In this document: positions 1-27,581 of the stretch, in pieces
Layout: each line of letters starts with the position of its first letter
How positions within the stretch are numbered: position 1 is the first letter of the stretch
Source: Propionibacteriaceae bacterium
GTDB taxonomy: Bacteria > Actinomycetota > Actinomycetes > Propionibacteriales > Propionibacteriaceae
DNA: 39,117 nucleotides
Assembly: GCA_031272195.1 (NCBI GenBank)
Contig: JAISUF010000061.1
Span: 1 to 39,117, forward strand
Direction of reading: 5' to 3'
Translations under genes and position numbers: made by a program
The notes under the pieces: generated by a model
Databases searched by the model: none
What the model was told of the DNA's origin: nothing
What the model saw: only the letters and a program-made list of their open reading frames with translations

Positions 1-1225
1 CCCCAGCGCCGCCCGGTGACGCCCACGCCGCAGAACGGGGAGAGCCATCCGCCAACCCGCCACCGCTCGGGGAGGCCGCTTCGCCGCCGGCCACGGGCGC
101 GTCCCACAGGGCCAGCGCCAGCGGGACGACCCAGACGTAGTGGTGCGACCACGAGACGGGCGAGCCGAGCAGCGACGTCAGCCCGGCCAGGCAGAAGCCC
201 AGGGCCGGGAAGCGCCGCCCCACCCGGATCGCGCCGACCAGGCCGAGGACGATCAACGCCACGCTGAGCGCCAGCGCGATCGCCGACGGGCTGCCCGACA
301 GGCGCGTCCAGACGCCCATTACGGTTTGGTTGGTGGCGAATTGGATGCGGTCGTTGACGCCGGAGTTGCCGGTGGCCAGGGCCGCCCAGTAGTACAACGA
401 CGGTTGCCAGAGGGCGAATCCCAGCGCGGTGCAGACCAGGAACGAGCAGAAGGCCACCACGCCGACGCGGCGCCTCCCCGAGAAGAACTCGTAGACGGCC
501 AGCAGCGCCGGGGTCAGCTTGACGGCCGTCGCCAGGCCCGTCAGCCAGCCCTCCCGCCGCCTGACCCGCACGGTGCGGAAACCGCTCGTTCCCCCGGAGC
601 GCTGGACCGCACGTCCAACCGTTTCAGGGCTGGACACTCCGCCACGGCCTCCCGGCCCGGATTCGCGTCGAGAGGCGTCAACGGGTGGGAGCGTCGGTGA
701 CGCGGGCGACAGCCCACCTGGTCCGCCCGCCTTGGATCGTCCGAAGCGCGCCCGCATCCTGGGCAGCGAGTCGAGGCAGGCCAGAGCCACCAAGAAGACG
801 CCCATTTGGCCGAACCCCAACGTTTCGCGCACCGGTTCGACGAACAACACGCAGACGGTGGCGGCCGCCGACAGCGGCCAGCCGTGGAAGCCGCAGCGGC
901 GAAGCAGCAGCGCCAACGCCAGCACGCAACCGGCCAGCCACGCCGCCGCGGCGACGTCGACCGGCAGCCACGCCCACCCGACGCTCACCACAGCCGCGCA
1001 CGGTGGAGAGCTCCACGGCAGTTGGTCGGCGGCGACGTGGAAGAAGTCGGCCCCGGCCAGCACCAGCCGCCCCGTGCGCTGGTAGACCTCGAGGTCCATC
1101 ATGCCGCCCGGATGCCACGGCCACAGCGTTCCGCCGGGGATCAGCCGCGCCCCCACCACCAGCGCGGCCACCAGCGGCGGGGCCATCAGCCCGGCCCCCC
1201 GCAGCAGTCGCCGCCCAAGTCTCAC
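1..1225 (-). CDS. GT87/DUF2029-family polyprenyl-linked mannosyltransferase-like membrane protein, C-terminus beyond window edge
   Basis: Manual minus-strand translation from GTG at 1225 is open to position 1: VRLGRRLLRGAGLMAPPLVAALVVGARLIPGGTLWPW...MMDLEVYQRTGRLVLAGADFF...GWLTGLATAVKLTPALLAVYEFFSGRRR...LYYWAALATGNSGVNDRIQFATNQTVMGV...SPVSWSHHYVWVVPLALALW. The TGLATAVKLTP and SPVSWSHHYVW motifs with multiple TM segments are typical of this family. Not in the supplied ORF track because it runs off the edge. Confidence 0.85.
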   Translation of the reverse strand, partial: MRLGRRLLRGAGLMAPPLVAALVVGARLIPGGTLWPWHPGGMMDLEVYQRTGRLVLAGADFFHVAADQLPWSSPPCAAVVSVGWAWLPVDVAAAAWLAGCVLALALLLRRCGFHGWPLSAAATVCVLFVEPVRETLGFGQMGVFLVALACLDSLPRMRARFGRSKAGGPGGLSPASPTLPPVDASRRESGPGGRGGVSSPETVGRAVQRSGGTSGFRTVRVRRREGWLTGLATAVKLTPALLAVYEFFSGRRRVGVVAFCSFLVCTALGFALWQPSLYYWAALATGNSGVNDRIQFATNQTVMGVWTRLSGSPSAIALALSVALIVLGLVGAIRVGRRFPALGFCLAGLTSLLGSPVSWSHHYVWVVPLALALWDAPVAGGEAASPSGGGLADGSPRSAAWASPGGAG

Positions 1226-1363
1226 GCGCCCCAGCCTATTGCCTTGAGTCTTGACGCAGGTCACGGCCTGGGCGGCGCGGACGCGGCCGGAGCGTTGCCT
1301 GAGATGGGACATGGTTCCCATCCCAGGCTCAGTCGCCGCCTGTTTGGGTATAGGCTTCCGGGC

Positions 1364-2806
1364 ATGAATGGCACATTTTCGAGGGCTGCCGCAGGCGTTC
1401 TGACCGTCGCCCTCGTTTTCGGGGGAACTGTCTTGAGCGGTGGAACGCCGGCGGATGCCGCCTCGAAAACTGCCACATTGAAAGTCGGCACCTTCAACGT
1501 GCGCCAATACACCGTCGGCTTGGACGCCATCAACGCGGCCAAGAAGGCCGGCAAGAAGACCAATGAGAAGCCGTGGGAGACCAGGCGGACTGTCATCGCC
1601 GCACAGATCAACGCGGCCGGGCTGGACGTCGTCGGCATCCAGGAGGCGTCACCCTTCGGCAAGACGAAGGGCTGGACGGCTGTCGCACCTCAGGCCTGCA
1701 AGAATGGCGCGTCCACGGTCGGCGTCGTCACACAGCCGGCCTACACCCGCCCCGCCTACCAAGACGTCCGCTTCTTCGTCTACGACTATTACGAATCGAA
1801 ATGGACTTGGGACGAAACGACTCAGACATCAGTCGAGACGCAGACGCTGGTTCCAGGCCACTACGACGAGGACATCGAGGGGCAAGAGGGCTACTGGAAC
1901 GGCGATTGGGTGGAAGGCTATCTAGACAGCAAAGGCGTCTACTATGCCTCGCACGAGGAATACAAGACTTGGGTGCCACCGAAACCCAATAGCAGGACGA
2001 CCGACTATGACGGAAATCCCGGCTTCTGGGAATATGGTGCCTACGTCAACGGCGTCTGGACGCCGAGCGCGTGGAATCCCGAGCAGGCCTTCCCCGAGGC
2101 CACCGAACAGTGGAAATGCAGCAACTACACCTTCTGGACTATTATCAGCCAGCGGCAAGACCTCGTGAACCAGCTAGGCGGCACCTGGAAAGACACCGGC
2201 GGCAACGGGGCTGATTTCTTGGTCTACAAGTCCAACAAGTTGGAGGTTGTGAAACAGGGTTGGAAGGATATCGCCACCGAGAAGATCAAGAGCCAGCAGT
2301 TGGCCCGCGGCGTCTCGTGGGCGGTGTTCCGCCAGAAGGCGACAGGCCGACAGTTCTTCGTCATCTCGACGCATCTGAATCCGTACAAGTCGGCCAAGAT
2401 CCGCAAGCAGCGCGTCAAGCAGGCCAAGCAGATCCTGGCGTTGATCAAGAAGAACAACACCGGCAACCTGCCCGTCATCTTGACCGGAGACCTCTCCGAG
2501 ACCGCCCGAACGCATGCCGACGACGCGGCGCACATGTTGATCAGCAAGCTGAAGTGGACCGACGCCATCAGCAAAGCGAAGAAGAAGGTCAACCCCAATC
2601 TCTGCTCGGTGCAGGACTGGCGGCGCAAGCCTTGGAGCTGCGGCAATCAAGGCCATGTCGACTACGTGCTCTACAAGAAGGGCAACGCGAAAACGGTGAC
2701 CGTCCTGAAGTGGGCCAACGTCATGAATCTGAAGAACGGCAAAGTTGTCGGCGTAATTCCGTCCGATCACACGCTGATCACGGCGACGCTGAAGTTCAGC
2801 TACTGA
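1364..2806 (+). CDS. Secreted endonuclease/exonuclease/phosphatase (EEP) family protein with aromatic-rich insertion
   Basis: ATG at 1364 gives a signal peptide (MNGTFSRAAAGVLTVALVFGGTVLSGGTPADA), then EEP motifs KVGTFNVRQ, DVVGIQEAS, FFVISTHLNP, LPVILTGDLSE, HVDYVLYKKG and SDHTLITATL. The track start at 806 is too far upstream. Confidence 0.9.
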   Translation: MNGTFSRAAAGVLTVALVFGGTVLSGGTPADAASKTATLKVGTFNVRQYTVGLDAINAAKKAGKKTNEKPWETRRTVIAAQINAAGLDVVGIQEASPFGKTKGWTAVAPQACKNGASTVGVVTQPAYTRPAYQDVRFFVYDYYESKWTWDETTQTSVETQTLVPGHYDEDIEGQEGYWNGDWVEGYLDSKGVYYASHEEYKTWVPPKPNSRTTDYDGNPGFWEYGAYVNGVWTPSAWNPEQAFPEATEQWKCSNYTFWTIISQRQDLVNQLGGTWKDTGGNGADFLVYKSNKLEVVKQGWKDIATEKIKSQQLARGVSWAVFRQKATGRQFFVISTHLNPYKSAKIRKQRVKQAKQILALIKKNNTGNLPVILTGDLSETARTHADDAAHMLISKLKWTDAISKAKKKVNPNLCSVQDWRRKPWSCGNQGHVDYVLYKKGNAKTVTVLKWANVMNLKNGKVVGVIPSDHTLITATLKFSY

Positions 2807-2819
2807 CCGCCGCCTGACA

Positions 2820-2861
2820 ACGACGGCCTCCCGCTGCGATCAAGCTCCGGGAGGCCGTCGT
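2820..2861. terminator. Candidate bidirectional terminator hairpin between convergent genes
   Basis: Perfect 13-bp inverted repeat ACGACGGCCTCCC (2820-2832) / GGGAGGCCGTCGT (2849-2861), 16-nt loop, between convergent stop codons. No strong T-tract. Confidence 0.7.
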
Positions 2862-2937
2862 CATTCAGCGCGTTGGAGAACCGCCTGGCAAGTCCCAATC
2901 GAAGTCGGCCGGCCAGCGCCAATCGCTGGCCGCAGCG

Positions 2938-4200
2938 TCATTTCTTGATCGTGATGGTGCCCCCAGCCAGGGTGCGGGGGGCGTCGCCGCGAACATTGCC
3001 GCTCAGCTTGCACTTGACCATCGTCACCTTGGCGCCGGTCTGCGATTGCAGGCCGTACCACGAGTTCTTGGTGATCTTGACCGATTTCGAGATGGTCGCC
3101 GTCGTGCCCTTGTTCTGGAAGAACAGGCCGTGGTTCTTGTTCTTGGTGACGACGTTGCCCGAGCCGGTCACCTTGAATTTGGAGCCGTTGGAGACGATGA
3201 TGCCTGTCTTCTTCGACCCACTGACGGTGTTCTTGGACTTGAGCGTCAGCGTCGAGGCGTTGGCCGTCAAGCCCTCCTGGCCGGAGTTCTTGACCGTCGA
3301 ATGGTCGAGGACGCCGGTCGCCTTCTTGGAGAAGGCCACGCCGTAGCCTTTGGGCGCCGAAATGGTGGAGTCGTTCAAAGTCAAGGTGGAGCCCTTGTCG
3401 AAAACCGACGCGCCGTTGCCTTTGGCGCCGCTGACGGTCGTCTTGCCGAGGGTGGCCTTGGAGCCTTTCGAGACGATCAGGCCTTGCAGGCCGGTCTTGG
3501 ACAGTTTCACCTCGTCGGTGGTCAATTCGCTGGCGTCGGTGACGAGAATGCCGTATTTCTTGACGTCCGACAGCGACAGCTTGGCCAGTTTGACGCCGGT
3601 GGCGTCCTTCAGCATGACCAGCGGGACGTCGCCGCCCGAGCCGTCCCAGTCGCCCTGGTAGACGCCCGCGCCGGACAGCGAGGCGATGTTGATCATGGCC
3701 GCACCCTTGCCCTTCCAGGTGACAGTCGCGCCGTCTTCGGCGACAACGTAGACCGACGGCTGGGCCAGCCGCAGCGGGGCGGTCAGCTTGTAGGAGCCGG
3801 CCGCCAGGTGGACGACCAGCGGTGTCAGAGTCTTGCGCTGCTTGACGGCCTGGGCCACCTGGGCCGACAGCTCGGACTTGGCCTTGACCTCGACCACCGT
3901 GTAGTCGCTGATGCCGAAGTAGGCGGCTGCGGCGGTGAGGGCGTCGACGGGTTCGGTGGTCTCGGTGGTCTCGCCCGTGGCCGTGCCAGTGGCAGTGGGC
4001 GAGGCCTGCGGCGTCGCCGTTGCGGCGGCTGTGGGTGTGACCGTGGCCGTTGGCGACGCCCCGGCGGTGACCGTCACGGTCACCGTCACTGTGGGAGTGG
4101 CGGTGGCCTCCGTCTCGCCCCAAGCCTGGCTGATGGGCACCAATCCGGCGGCCAGCAGGCCGACCAGTGCGGCAGTGGCCCCAATTTCGAATTTGCGCAT
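2938..4200 (-). CDS. Secreted right-handed parallel beta-helix (pectate-lyase-like fold) repeat protein
   Basis: Signal peptide MRKFEIGATAALVGLLAAGLVPISQAWG, Thr/Pro/Ala-rich linker, then recurring turns such as YGILVTDASELTTDEVKLSKTGLQGLIVSKGSKATLGKTTVSGAKGNGASVFDKGS typical of beta-helix repeats. Confidence 0.75.
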   Translation of the reverse strand: MRKFEIGATAALVGLLAAGLVPISQAWGETEATATPTVTVTVTVTAGASPTATVTPTAAATATPQASPTATGTATGETTETTEPVDALTAAAAYFGISDYTVVEVKAKSELSAQVAQAVKQRKTLTPLVVHLAAGSYKLTAPLRLAQPSVYVVAEDGATVTWKGKGAAMINIASLSGAGVYQGDWDGSGGDVPLVMLKDATGVKLAKLSLSDVKKYGILVTDASELTTDEVKLSKTGLQGLIVSKGSKATLGKTTVSGAKGNGASVFDKGSTLTLNDSTISAPKGYGVAFSKKATGVLDHSTVKNSGQEGLTANASTLTLKSKNTVSGSKKTGIIVSNGSKFKVTGSGNVVTKNKNHGLFFQNKGTTATISKSVKITKNSWYGLQSQTGAKVTMVKCKLSGNVRGDAPRTLAGGTITIKK

Positions 4201-4381
4201 GATTTCCCCTTAGAGATTGGCGATACCGGCAGGCTAGCTCTGCCCAGAGTCCGCCAGGGGGAGGCTTGACGCGGGCCGCGTGTCCCTCAATGACACCTTG
4301 AGAGATAAGCCAGGCGTGCGACACGGCGGTGTCGAGGCCCAGTCGGACCGTCACCGGAGTGGCGGGCAGTACAGTGGACGG

Positions 4382-8089
<3,708 letters not shown>

Positions 8090-19684: not shown

Positions 19685-19785
19685 ACGTGACATCGGTTCT
19701 GTTGTCACGTGCCCCAGGGTTGGCTGCCGCCGATAACCACGTGCCAAGAGAACCGATGTCACGTGGCACAGGAACCGATGTCACA
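19685..19785. repeat. REP-like intergenic palindrome cluster
   Basis: ACGTGACATCGGTTCT (19685-19700) is the exact reverse complement of AGAACCGATGTCACGT (19749-19764); a third core copy GGAACCGATGTCACA at 19771-19785. Confidence 0.8.
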
Positions 19786-19796
19786 TTGCAGGGGCG

Positions 19797-20777
19797 TCAC
19801 TGGGCTTGCTTGCAGCCGCCGCCGGGGTAGTAGTCGAAGCCGGCCAGCACCTGGAGGGTTTCGTCGTTCATGTAGGACGTCCACTCGGCCTTGTCCATCG
19901 GCATGGCCTCGACCGGCAGCAACTGCATGTCCTGCTCGACGCGGGGGGCGATCGAGGCTATGTCGAAGGCCGTCGTGCCGTCGTCGATGGTGACCGCGCC
20001 TGTGCCGACGAAGGCTATCTGCTGCAGTTTCACCGGGTCGCTGGCCACCTGCTTGAAACGCTCGACGAACGAGTCGACCAGCTCGCCCGAATAGCGGGCC
20101 CGGGCGGCGTTGCCCTCATCCTCGGTGAAGGGTATCCACTTGCCGTCGATCTTGCGCTCGGCCGTCCTAGCCCGCAGCAAGCCGAGCGCGTCGGTGCCGT
20201 CCAGCAGCTGGTGGCCGGCTTTGGGGATGTCGAGGCCCTTGTCGTCGTCGTGCATCGGGTACTCGATGTCCATCCACACCCCGCCGACGGCGTCCACCAA
20301 ATTGACCATGCCCGACATCGACACCATCGCGACGTGGTCGACGGGGATGCCCATGCCCTCGCACAGGCCGCCGATCAGCGTGTCGATGCCCGGCTTCAGC
20401 AGCAGCGTCAGGCGCTCCATGTGGCCTTCGGCGTCGTAACGGACGGTCAGGTTGCGGGGAATCGACAAGATGCGGGCCTGCCCGCCGTCGTCGGGCACCT
20501 GCACGACGATGATGACGTCGGCCCGGTCGCCGACGGTTTGGTTGGTGGCCGGGTCGATGACCGGCTTGTCGTCCACGCCGACCACCAGCCACGTCTTGGA
20601 GTACGTCGACGACACCGCTGCCGACTTGCGGACCGGTTCGCGCTGGACGCGCTGCGACAGCACGGCGATGTCGACGGCGATGGCGGCCACGGTGGCCAGC
20701 AGAATCGTGCCGACGGCTTTCAACACCGTCACAAACGGGTTGCCGCGTCGGCCGTCTTCGGGAGCCTCAGAGCGCAC
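19797..20777 (-). CDS. LytR-CpsA-Psr (LCP) family cell-envelope protein, divergent
   Basis: N-terminal TM; DRADVIIVVQVPDDGGQARILSIPRNLTV; VDHVAMVSMSGMVNLVDAVGGVWMDIEYPM; LDIPKAGHQLLDGTDALGLLRARTAER. Confidence 0.85.
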   Translation of the reverse strand: MRSEAPEDGRRGNPFVTVLKAVGTILLATVAAIAVDIAVLSQRVQREPVRKSAAVSSTYSKTWLVVGVDDKPVIDPATNQTVGDRADVIIVVQVPDDGGQARILSIPRNLTVRYDAEGHMERLTLLLKPGIDTLIGGLCEGMGIPVDHVAMVSMSGMVNLVDAVGGVWMDIEYPMHDDDKGLDIPKAGHQLLDGTDALGLLRARTAERKIDGKWIPFTEDEGNAARARYSGELVDSFVERFKQVASDPVKLQQIAFVGTGAVTIDDGTTAFDIASIAPRVEQDMQLLPVEAMPMDKAEWTSYMNDETLQVLAGFDYYPGGGCKQAQ

Positions 20778-21486
20778 GGGCGCCCTCCACGTGCAGCACC
20801 GCCACCAGGTTGTCCTTGGAGTAGCCGTTGGAATACTGCGGGCCCGCCTGGTCGCACGACACCAGCAGCAGGCGGCCCGGCGTCTGTTCGGTGATCTTGT
20901 CGGTCTTGGTGTATTCGTCCTTGGGGATGTAGAGAAGCTCGTCGACGACGTAGGTGATGACGCCGTAGTCGGTCTCGACTTCGGCCTTGTCGCCCTTCTT
21001 CAGCTTCGGCAGCTTGTCGAAGACGCCAGTGCGGGTGGTCGCCGAATGGCCGAAGAAGTAGACCGTGCCGCCGGCGTTGACGCCCGGATTCTCGCCGTAG
21101 GCGACGCCGTCGACGCCGCCGATCTGCTGGTAGACGAGGTTGAAGTCGGGCGGGTTGACGCAGCGGATGGCGCCGTCGCGATAGCAGGACTGGCCGTTCG
21201 GGTCGGTGCCCTGTTTGGCGTCGGCGGCGGTGTACGGGACGACTTCGGCGTTGACGCCGATCGAGGAGATGCGAAGCCGGCGTGGCGTGGCGCTGATGCC
21301 CGGATCGGGGGCTTCGGTGCGGTCGGGGATGGCGTAGCTGGGCTCGCCGGTCGGCAGGGCCGGCGGCGAAACTTGTGAGCCGGCGTTGACGCCTGGAAGC
21401 AGCGTGATGGCCAACCCGACCGCCAAGGCGACGGCCAGCACGGCGACGACCACCCGCCAGGTCCATTTCACAGCCCGTGTGGCCAT
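20767..21486 (-). CDS. Sortase (class E/F-like)
   Basis: N-terminal TM (WRVVVAVLAVALAVGLAITLLPG), RLRISSIGVNAEVVP, GGTVYFFGHSATTRTGVFDKLPKLKKGD, LLLVSCDQAG. ATG at 21486 preferred because GGAGGTG lies just upstream; 11-bp overlap with the LCP gene. Confidence 0.85.
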   Translation of the reverse strand: MATRAVKWTWRVVVAVLAVALAVGLAITLLPGVNAGSQVSPPALPTGEPSYAIPDRTEAPDPGISATPRRLRISSIGVNAEVVPYTAADAKQGTDPNGQSCYRDGAIRCVNPPDFNLVYQQIGGVDGVAYGENPGVNAGGTVYFFGHSATTRTGVFDKLPKLKKGDKAEVETDYGVITYVVDELLYIPKDEYTKTDKITEQTPGRLLLVSCDQAGPQYSNGYSKDNLVAVLHVEGARAL

Positions 21487-21503
21487 GCTCACCTCCACAA
21501 AGT

Positions 21504-21536
21504 CATATGGCCCCCGCCTGAGGCAGAGGCCATATG
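21504..21536. promoter_or_regulatory. Hairpin in the sortase 5' leader
   Basis: CATATGGCC (21504-21512) / GGCCATATG (21528-21536) with a small inner GCC-TGA-GGC palindrome, about 18 bp upstream of the sortase start. Confidence 0.55.
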
Positions 21537-21601
21537 TTAGTCGATCTTTCTGTTCACGCCACCCGAGGCTTGACGCTGTTGGGCTGTGGAACCAGCTCGA
21601 G

Positions 21602-22219
21602 TCAGCCGATCACGGGGAGGGCCGGGGCCACCTTCTCGCCTGTGTTGGCGGCGGGCAGACCGTAGACCGTGGTCGTCGACGTCGCCGTGGTAGTGGCGGT
21701 GTCGCTTGACTCCGGGCTGGGGGTGTCCGCAGTGCCCTCGTCGGTCGGGGTCGCAACGGTCGCGGCAGTCGTGGTGGCTGTGGTCGCGGCGGTGGTCGCC
21801 GTGGTCGCGGCGGTCGTGGCTGTGGTGGCCGCCGTGGTCTGGGTGGTGTCACCCTGGATGACAATGGTGTAGCTGGCGGTGCGACCGCTGCTGACGCCGG
21901 TGCCGACGATGGTGTGGTTGCCCGGCGTCAGATTGGACGGCAGCGTCACCGACGTCGTCACCGTGCCGGTGCCGTCGGCCACGACCGTGCCCGGTCCGAG
22001 CGGCTGCGGGTCGGAGTAGATAACCAGCCTGACCGTCTCGTTGGGGGCGAAACCTTTCAGGACGATCTGAATGGCCACGCCAGCCCTGGCCGTCGTCGGC
22101 CCGGAAATGGTGGCGACGCCGTTATAGGGCAAGTTCTCGGCACTGGCGGCTGCGGCTAGTCCAAATAGCGCGCCCAACGAGAGCGCTGCGGCCAGGACGA
22201 TGCTCGAGATTCTCCTCAT
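21602..22219 (-). CDS. Secreted Thr-rich surface protein with LPAANTG sorting-like motif
   Basis: Signal peptide MRRISSIVLAAALSLGALFGLAAAASA, one Ig-like domain (SGPTTARAGVAIQIVLKGFAPNETVRLVIYS...TLPSNLTPGNHTIVGTGVSSGRTASYTIVI), (TTAAT)n linker, C-terminus YGLPAANTGEKVAPALPVIG then stop. Confidence 0.8.
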   Translation of the reverse strand: MRRISSIVLAAALSLGALFGLAAAASAENLPYNGVATISGPTTARAGVAIQIVLKGFAPNETVRLVIYSDPQPLGPGTVVADGTGTVTTSVTLPSNLTPGNHTIVGTGVSSGRTASYTIVIQGDTTQTTAATTATTAATTATTAATTATTTAATVATPTDEGTADTPSPESSDTATTTATSTTTVYGLPAANTGEKVAPALPVIG

Positions 22220-26284: not shown

Positions 26285-26923
26285 GTGGCTGAGGAGAAGG
26301 CGCGCGCCGCATTGAGCGCCAAGACTGGGAACCCCGAACGCCCGTGGTCGATTTGGCTGGCCTTGCTGGCCAGCTACGCCGCCGTCGCGGTGCTGGGCGT
26401 CGCCCTGGGGCTGTGCTACTGGACGGCCGTGGACGATTTCGCCCACGCCTCCTGGCTGATGGGGCTGTTCCCCACCGAGGTCGGATCGGCCGAGCGGGTG
26501 TTGCTGGCCGTGGCCGTCACCTTCGCCGCGCTGATTCCGGCGATCGCCTGCGTCATCAGCGGGTTTTACGGCTGGTCCGGCTACCGCTGGGCGCGCTGGG
26601 CGGCCCTCGTGACGCTGGTGCTGTCGTTCGCGGGCTGGTTGATTAACGTCTGGACGCTGGCCGCCTGCGCGCTGACGCTGCTGGCGCTGCTGGCTTTCCT
26701 GCTACCGCCGAGCGCCCGTTTCTTCCGCGCCTGGCACGCTTTGCGCCATCCCGAATCGCCCTACGCCGACGCGCCCGCAGGCGTCTATTACGGGCCGCTG
26801 CCCAAGTATCGCGAGATCGCCCCCGAGGCTGTGGCAATCAGCAGCACGGACCCGACGCGGCCCCGCCGCCAGGCCGACACCGCCGACCAGGCGGTCGAGT
26901 ACCAGGAGACTTACAGTGCCTGA
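26285..26923 (+). CDS. Multi-pass membrane protein of unknown function
   Basis: GTG start; about four hydrophobic segments (WSIWLALLASYAAVAVLGVALGLCYW, VLLAVAVTFAALIPAIACVISGFYG, WAALVTLVLSFAGWLINVW, ALTLLALLAFLLPP). Confidence 0.75.
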   Translation: MAEEKARAALSAKTGNPERPWSIWLALLASYAAVAVLGVALGLCYWTAVDDFAHASWLMGLFPTEVGSAERVLLAVAVTFAALIPAIACVISGFYGWSGYRWARWAALVTLVLSFAGWLINVWTLAACALTLLALLAFLLPPSARFFRAWHALRHPESPYADAPAGVYYGPLPKYREIAPEAVAISSTDPTRPRRQADTADQAVEYQETYSA

Positions 26924-27581
26924 CTACGCGAAACTCCTCGGCCAGGTGGCCCGGGCCGTCTTCGACGCCTACGCCAAGTCGAAGCCGTCACAAGGCGGCC
27001 GCACGACGTCCTCAACGGCCAATGCCACCGGCTCCACGACAAGCGCGACGGCCGGCGCCGCGCCGACCGCGACGCGCGGCCAAGCGCCGTCGAGCGCGTC
27101 CACGGCGGGTTCCGGCGCCTCCCAATCGACGGCCAAAGGGCGCAAGACGGCCACGCCGCCGCTGTCGATGAACTACCCCGGCGACTATCCGGGCGTGCCC
27201 CAGTTGACCTACGACCCGCATTCCGACAACCAGCCCGATCCCGGCGAGGTGGTGTGGGCCTGGATTCCCTATGAGGAGGATTACTCACAGGGCAAAGACC
27301 GCCCGGCGCTGGTCGTCGGCAAGGACGGGGCGTGGTTCTTGGCGTTGATGCTGACCAGCCAAGACCACGACCTCGACCGCGCCCAGGAGAACCGCGAGGG
27401 ACGCTATTGGGTGGAGATCGGCTCCGGCCCGTGGGACAGCCAGGGGCGCGTCTCCGAGGCCCGCGTCAATCGGATCGTCCGCGTCAACCCCAACACCGTG
27501 CGCCGCATCGGCGGGCGTCTGGACGAGGCCGTCTTCGACAAGGTCGCGGCCGGCATCCGCGCCCACCCGCCCACCGCGTGA
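26916..27581 (+). CDS. PemK/MazF-family toxin-like protein with low-complexity linker
   Basis: PDPGEVVWAWIPYEEDYSQGKDRPALVVGKDGAWFLALMLTSQDHD...VSEARVNRIVRVNPNTVRRIGGRLDEAVFDKVA; GTG start overlaps the upstream gene by 8 bp. Confidence 0.8.
   Translation: MPDYAKLLGQVARAVFDAYAKSKPSQGGRTTSSTANATGSTTSATAGAAPTATRGQAPSSASTAGSGASQSTAKGRKTATPPLSMNYPGDYPGVPQLTYDPHSDNQPDPGEVVWAWIPYEEDYSQGKDRPALVVGKDGAWFLALMLTSQDHDLDRAQENREGRYWVEIGSGPWDSQGRVSEARVNRIVRVNPNTVRRIGGRLDEAVFDKVAAGIRAHPPTA

Follow-up and report, generated by a model that had tools for sequence, protein, structure and literature searches.

A GspA/LcpA-type surface-glycoprotein module, with a sortase gene of its own between substrate and LCP and with the membrane anchor of its substrate lost, is probably the best description of three adjoining genes in a Propionibacteriaceae bacterium (assembly GCA_031272195.1, contig JAISUF010000061.1, forward strand; the whole stretch of 39,117 nucleotides is referred to here as the window, and its genome as G000). 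The three genes stay linked in relatives, the LCP is kin to LcpA of Actinomyces oris, the substrate has no membrane anchor, and across the family the type of substrate tail is associated with the state of the class E sortase. By analogy with A. oris, glycosylation of the window substrate is likely; its anchoring, judged from the sequence, remains unproven.

Read in the direction of transcription, the genes encode a GspA-like secreted substrate of 205 residues (P0001; 21602..22219), a divergent, dedicated sortase of 239 residues (20767..21486, with an alternative GTG start at 21498) and an LcpA-type LCP phosphotransferase of 326 residues (19797..20777). All three lie on the minus strand, side by side, and the sortase and LCP genes share an 11-bp overlap, just as the preliminary description had it. 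A ribosomal operon, rpsF-ssb-(rpsR)-rplI (gene names from the reading of the open reading frames), precedes them on the same strand. Between the substrate and sortase genes lies a hairpin not remarked upon in that description, with a 15-bp stem and a 3-nt loop (21504..21536, minus strand; z -4.6). Hairpins of unrelated sequence stand at the equivalent place in L051, L052 (after both substrates), L053 and L054 (z -5.5 to -7.1), and none follows the substrate stop codon in L050. The window hairpin is probably an attenuator or RNA-stability element, and it may lower expression of the sortase and LCP relative to that of the substrate. Two further features of the window lie outside the three genes: three copies of GAACCGATGTCAC, one of them inverted, in the gap that separates the LCP gene from an aldose epimerase gene (19687-19784), with a further copy elsewhere in the genome, on another contig (L218), and, on the plus strand at 26916-27581, a PemK/MazF-like toxin domain (PF02452, E 8e-11) that follows a long low-complexity N-terminus.

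A Pfam search with the substrate returned no domain matches, and its N-terminal region is 40-46% identical to that of the linked homologues in the relatives G020 and G319. Residues 1-27 read by eye as a Sec signal peptide, with cleavage between AAASA and EN (22139..22219, minus strand, as are all substrate features given here). Residues 33-122 (21854..22123) are modelled by AlphaFold as an Ig-like beta-sandwich domain, with pLDDT above 90 over most of its length, and the PDB structures that match it are generic Ig-like ones. There follows a linker, residues 124-187 (21659..21850), of low pLDDT and apparently disordered, whose composition of 47% Thr and 23% Ala confirms the Thr/Ala tract noted earlier. 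The composition is not conserved in relatives: the linker of the linked G020 homologue holds only 9% Ser+Thr, and the idea that the Thr tract is a conserved acceptor for sugars was rejected.

At its C-terminus the substrate departs from expectation. A LPXTG cell-wall sorting signal comprises the motif, a hydrophobic stretch and a charged tail; the window substrate has LPAANTG close to its C-terminus (residues 188-194; 21638..21658), a motif with two extra residues relative to the LPXTG consensus, but lacks the other two parts. Only eleven residues, EKVAPALPVIG, come between the motif and a TGA stop (21602..21637), and the protein ends in ALPVIG, with no positively charged tail; the AlphaFold model has no C-terminal helix. 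No membrane helix, hydrophobic stretch or charged tail is found downstream of LPAANTG in any frame. A frameshift or assembly error masking a membrane tail was considered and rejected, there being no such helix in the three downstream frames of the window or of 14 tail-less relatives; the sole helix in these frames is the N-terminus of the LCP itself, where the LCP gene overlaps. The LPxxTG-like ending of the preliminary description thus stands as a motif and falls as a complete sorting signal, and, with two of the three parts missing and the third off-consensus, the claim that the protein is anchored is left unsupported. As far as can be read from its letters, the LPAANTG end of the window substrate is not a cell-wall sorting signal. 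A search of the window genome with the LPXTG_anchor model was uninformative, its matches being weak and noisy, as they were in all 14 control genomes.

Is the motif then a mere remnant? A recent stop mutation or deletion may have removed the tail, leaving a secreted protein whose LPAANTG is a relic without a reader. We consider this rather improbable, though it is the alternative that fares best. The closest TM-bearing homologue, L051, has an NTG that aligns with that of LPAANTG and then runs on into a membrane helix and RR tail (NTGAPVNDGLPLLPIGLGALLVV..RR), and it aligns up to the very point at which the window substrate stops, at the start of the helix. The off-consensus form of LPAANTG fits decay as well, and in the sister genomes G129 and G192 the tail has been lost in one and kept in the other. 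Against simple decay stands what is seen when LcpA-type LCPs are sought across the family by protein searches and their surrounding genes are read. In 14 further family genomes, LcpA-linked substrates keep a bare LPxTG-type end with the motif at most eight residues from the stop and almost nothing after it (KPGLPRTGAAI, RPGLPSTGA and GLPHTGN are examples; one variant reads LPAAG and one MPRTG). In these loci no sortase separates the pair, and the LCP gene may come before or after that of the substrate. Five orthologues share PG[LM]P[RK]TG but differ in the linker ahead of it. In three genomes of a second genus, g24 (G194, G307 and G351, at L052, L053 and L054), all four linked substrates keep a distinct and exact ending, MP[AD]LG[ST]DVI-stop, again with no membrane helix. 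Such conservation of the motif letters argues against the absence of a reader in the bare-LPxTG genus, and the window's own motif may nonetheless be a relic.

The bare ending extends beyond LcpA-linked substrates. A 0.8 Mb sample of genome G208 contains seven proteins that end in this way (two GspA-like, three with thioester domains, one subtilase and one leucine-rich-repeat protein), as against about 0.09 terminal motifs expected from the internal LPxTG density, and it contains only two classical signals, both beside the class C-like sortase of that genome. Endings of the form '[KR]PGLP[RK]TG' with no membrane tail were recorded at L170, L181, L196 and L201 in G208 and at L255, L260 and L261 in G072, on GspA-like, thioester-domain, subtilase and leucine-rich-repeat proteins. 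MPxLG[ST]DVI, when tried as a genome-wide signal, was rejected: across 19 genomes of the genus, the corresponding DNA pattern had no occurrence beyond the four linked substrates. A search of the literature on tail-less LPxTG proteins or inactive sortases yielded nothing relevant, which is weak evidence of absence with subscription papers mostly outside its coverage; the tail-less pattern in this family has apparently not been described so far.

Whether a substrate keeps its tail goes with the state of the class E, or housekeeping, sortase. Some sortase-domain protein is present in all 20 family genomes tested. Where the class E enzyme is intact (G020, G319 and G259), the substrates are TM-bearing in all three cases. 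In twelve genomes its His and/or Cys has been replaced (G194, G351, G307, G129, G192, G094, G295, G091, G346, G064, G154 and G303), by various residues (Tyr, Arg or Asn for His; Ala, Asn, His, Gln or Ser for Cys), and eleven of these twelve “dead” class E genomes have tail-less substrates. The exception is G192, which is TM-bearing, while its sister G129 combines a dead class E sortase with a tail-less substrate; the pair would fit a sequence in which sortase death came first and anchor loss second, though a single pair proves nothing. No class E sortase was found at the search threshold in G208, G171, G072, G240, G336 or the window genome, all of them tail-less. In the window genome, a draft in 240 contigs with a completeness of 95.75%, the gene could be missing by chance. 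In total, 17 of the 18 genomes in which the enzyme is dead or not found are tail-less, and the association of class E state with tail type gives a Fisher p of 0.003, a value uncorrected for relatedness in a set drawn mostly from one genus. The dead copies retain open frames with dN < dS (ratio approximately 0.27 to 0.48 for well-aligned pairs, by a simple method and with some dS values high), and from this they appear to be maintained. Loci of this description are L162, L163, L152, L250, L151, L157, L158, L149, L150, L153, L264 and L265.

For the sortase of the window, the identification proposed at the outset is secure in that the protein matches PF04203 (E 1e-10) and its structural model matches sortases A, C and E. 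The label “dedicated” also fits, because a search of the draft genome found no second PF04203 protein. The active-site His147 and Cys211 are present, and the two are invariant in 10 of 10 linked sortases. By sequence alignment, the position of the catalytic Arg is occupied by Lys224 in the window and, in the other linked sortases, by Lys, Thr, Ala, Ser or Val. The missing Arg is not unique to the module, since the unlinked sortase-like proteins in the order include some that lack it too; sortase-like proteins with 'TCEDWNG..YLSN' endings, without the usual catalytic Arg by alignment, were noted at L011-L031 and L039-L048. None of the NCBIfam sortase class models reaches its cut-off. The best match is class F, with which the protein has in common a single N-terminal membrane helix and the active-site His and Cys, but its score is 43.3 bits against a cut-off of 166, and the Arg position differs as described. 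Pilus-type clusters of pilins and a class C sortase offer a likeness in that substrate genes lie next to a dedicated sortase; the window, by contrast, has no pilin-like substrate, its sortase is not of class C, and an LCP gene stands in the place of pilin genes.

Close relatives of this sortase are rare: a search of 397 genomes from the order gave matches, mostly weak ones, in 19 at E 1e-10. Where they occur, the linkage is maintained: substrate, sortase and LCP lie side by side in six Propionibacteriaceae genomes of two genera (G000, G020, G319, G194, G307 and G351). The same gene order is seen in the Bifidobacteriaceae MAGs L062 and L063 and in the isolate Microbacterium sp. SYP-A9085 (L064), and the same three genes, with the LCP before the sortase, in L065. 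In L062 there are two sortase-LCP pairs and several substrates; over positions 1-7522 the pairs are in tandem among several Ig-domain substrates, and the first sortase apparently lacks the active-site Cys (VLIESDH). The flanking genes differ among these ten linked loci, from which it follows that the linkage is no accident and that the three genes have held together as a unit in the course of rearrangement or transfer. No further gene recurs consistently beside them. Had relatives lost the linkage, this would have told against the module as first described; the check was made, and the trio was instead found together across these varied neighborhoods.

This same constancy bears on the possibility that the sortase is a passenger, serving other proteins and not the neighboring substrate, so that the module would consist of the glycosylation pair only. 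In favor of such a reading, genus g16 has the same substrate/LCP pair with no sortase in between, and another Thr-rich protein of the window genome has a normal-looking membrane tail, with a RRRRAR end after SHTGG. That the sortase nevertheless stays with the pair in all ten loci, where nothing else does, makes the passenger explanation improbable in our view. The preliminary description's restriction of the system to one substrate is likewise unproven, as some relatives have at least two substrates and the window genome has this further tailed, Thr-rich protein. The Thr-rich protein recorded in the window genome as L076 (G000:C48:27066) ends in SHTGGEATGASPGMAAVIAAFGLALVGLGLRRRRARQTG and is a possible second sortase substrate.

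The third gene gives the closest tie to a characterized system. Its product matches PF03816 (E 3.5e-20; 73.1 bits against a cut-off of 24.6), and its gene is linked to that of a secreted Ig-domain protein, the putative glycoprotein. LCPs normally act as transferases of glycopolymers to peptidoglycan, and the window genome has two further LCPs, three in total; that this one, too, attaches an ordinary cell-wall glycopolymer to peptidoglycan and is placed here by coincidence is nevertheless unlikely, given that its sequence resembles LcpA much more than TagT/U/V and that LcpA-type LCPs adjoin Ig-domain secreted proteins in about two dozen loci, in both gene orders.

Among solved structures, 5v8c comes nearest (E 1e-38), with the next solved LCPs at E 6e-7 or weaker. 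We take this entry for A. oris LcpA, since its length fits the published construct (residues 78-370) and all the published key residues are in register (PMC6381275). R85, R108, R226 and C139 of the window protein align with R128, R149, R266 and C179 of LcpA, and C322, which is invariant in 11 of 11 linked LCPs, matches the place of C365 to within one residue, just past the end of the alignment. The LCP had at first been called divergent on account of the segment RTAERKIDGKWIPFTEDEGNAARARYS. This does not hold up: LcpA (5v8c) has in RHPEILRDGRWVTMSQADGAQRRSQST a counterpart of the same length and layout, with R226 of the window segment aligned to R266, and the catalytic arginines and cysteines are kept.

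The A. oris lcpA gene sits immediately 3' of gspA, R149 and R266 of LcpA are required for glycosylation of GspA, LcpA has a disulfide, and GspA stripped of its sorting signal continues to be glycosylated (PMC6381275). Depletion of the sortase is lethal in that organism, presumably via glycosylated GspA accumulating in the membrane (PMC7244523), and a review calls LCP-mediated protein glycosylation 'so far unique' to A. oris (PMC7831098). The window shares with the GspA-LcpA system, which is served by the housekeeping SrtA, the LcpA-type LCP with its catalytic arginines and disulfide cysteines, the neighboring secreted-protein gene and the logic of glycosylating and then anchoring. It differs in having the sortase gene between substrate and LCP, where A. 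oris has lcpA directly after gspA, and in the incomplete sorting signal of its substrate, where that of GspA is complete; the likeness of the substrate to GspA is drawn from its locus and the LcpA kinship. The Actinomyces precedent invoked in the preliminary description is thus stronger than was stated there, because the LCP is LcpA-type by sequence, by catalytic residues and by disulfide cysteines.

For a GspA/LcpA-type module with its own sortase and a lost anchor, the following course of events is suggested. Sec would export the Ig-domain protein, and the LCP, if it acts as LcpA does, would move a lipid-linked glycan onto it. In what may be the ancestral form, the linked sortase would then join the substrate to the cell wall by way of a membrane-anchored C-terminal signal; this form is represented by G020, G319 and the Bifidobacteriaceae and Microbacterium relatives. 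With the anchor lost in the window organism and the protein ending shortly past LPAANTG, the product would either serve the linked sortase as a soluble substrate or be released as a glycoprotein. Anchor loss here would belong to a trend seen across the family, which accompanies the loss or inactivation of the housekeeping class E sortase. It could plausibly be explained by toxicity: a glycoprotein left unsorted in the membrane would be harmful, like GspA in sortase-depleted A. oris, and shedding the anchor would spare the cell this harm whenever sorting fails. A bolder proposal, which we put forward as speculation and think quite unlikely to be right, is that the bare C-terminal LPxTG (MPxLG[ST]DVI in some relatives) could function without a membrane helix as a signal for sorting or retention. 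In genomes where the class E sortase is dead yet retained under purifying selection, that protein would bind the LPxTG end as a receptor without cutting it, and in modules of the window type the Arg-lacking linked sortase would play the corresponding role for LcpA-glycosylated substrates.

The linked LcpA genes would, on the strength of the A. oris analogy, extend LCP-mediated protein glycosylation beyond that species to relatives in which it can be tested. The part most worth following is the tail-less LPxTG ending and its tie to sortase state. A family that keeps the terminal LPxTG letters and sheds the membrane anchor in parallel with the reader sortase makes the role of the anchor directly testable, and the pattern bears on why loss of the sortase is lethal in A. 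oris.
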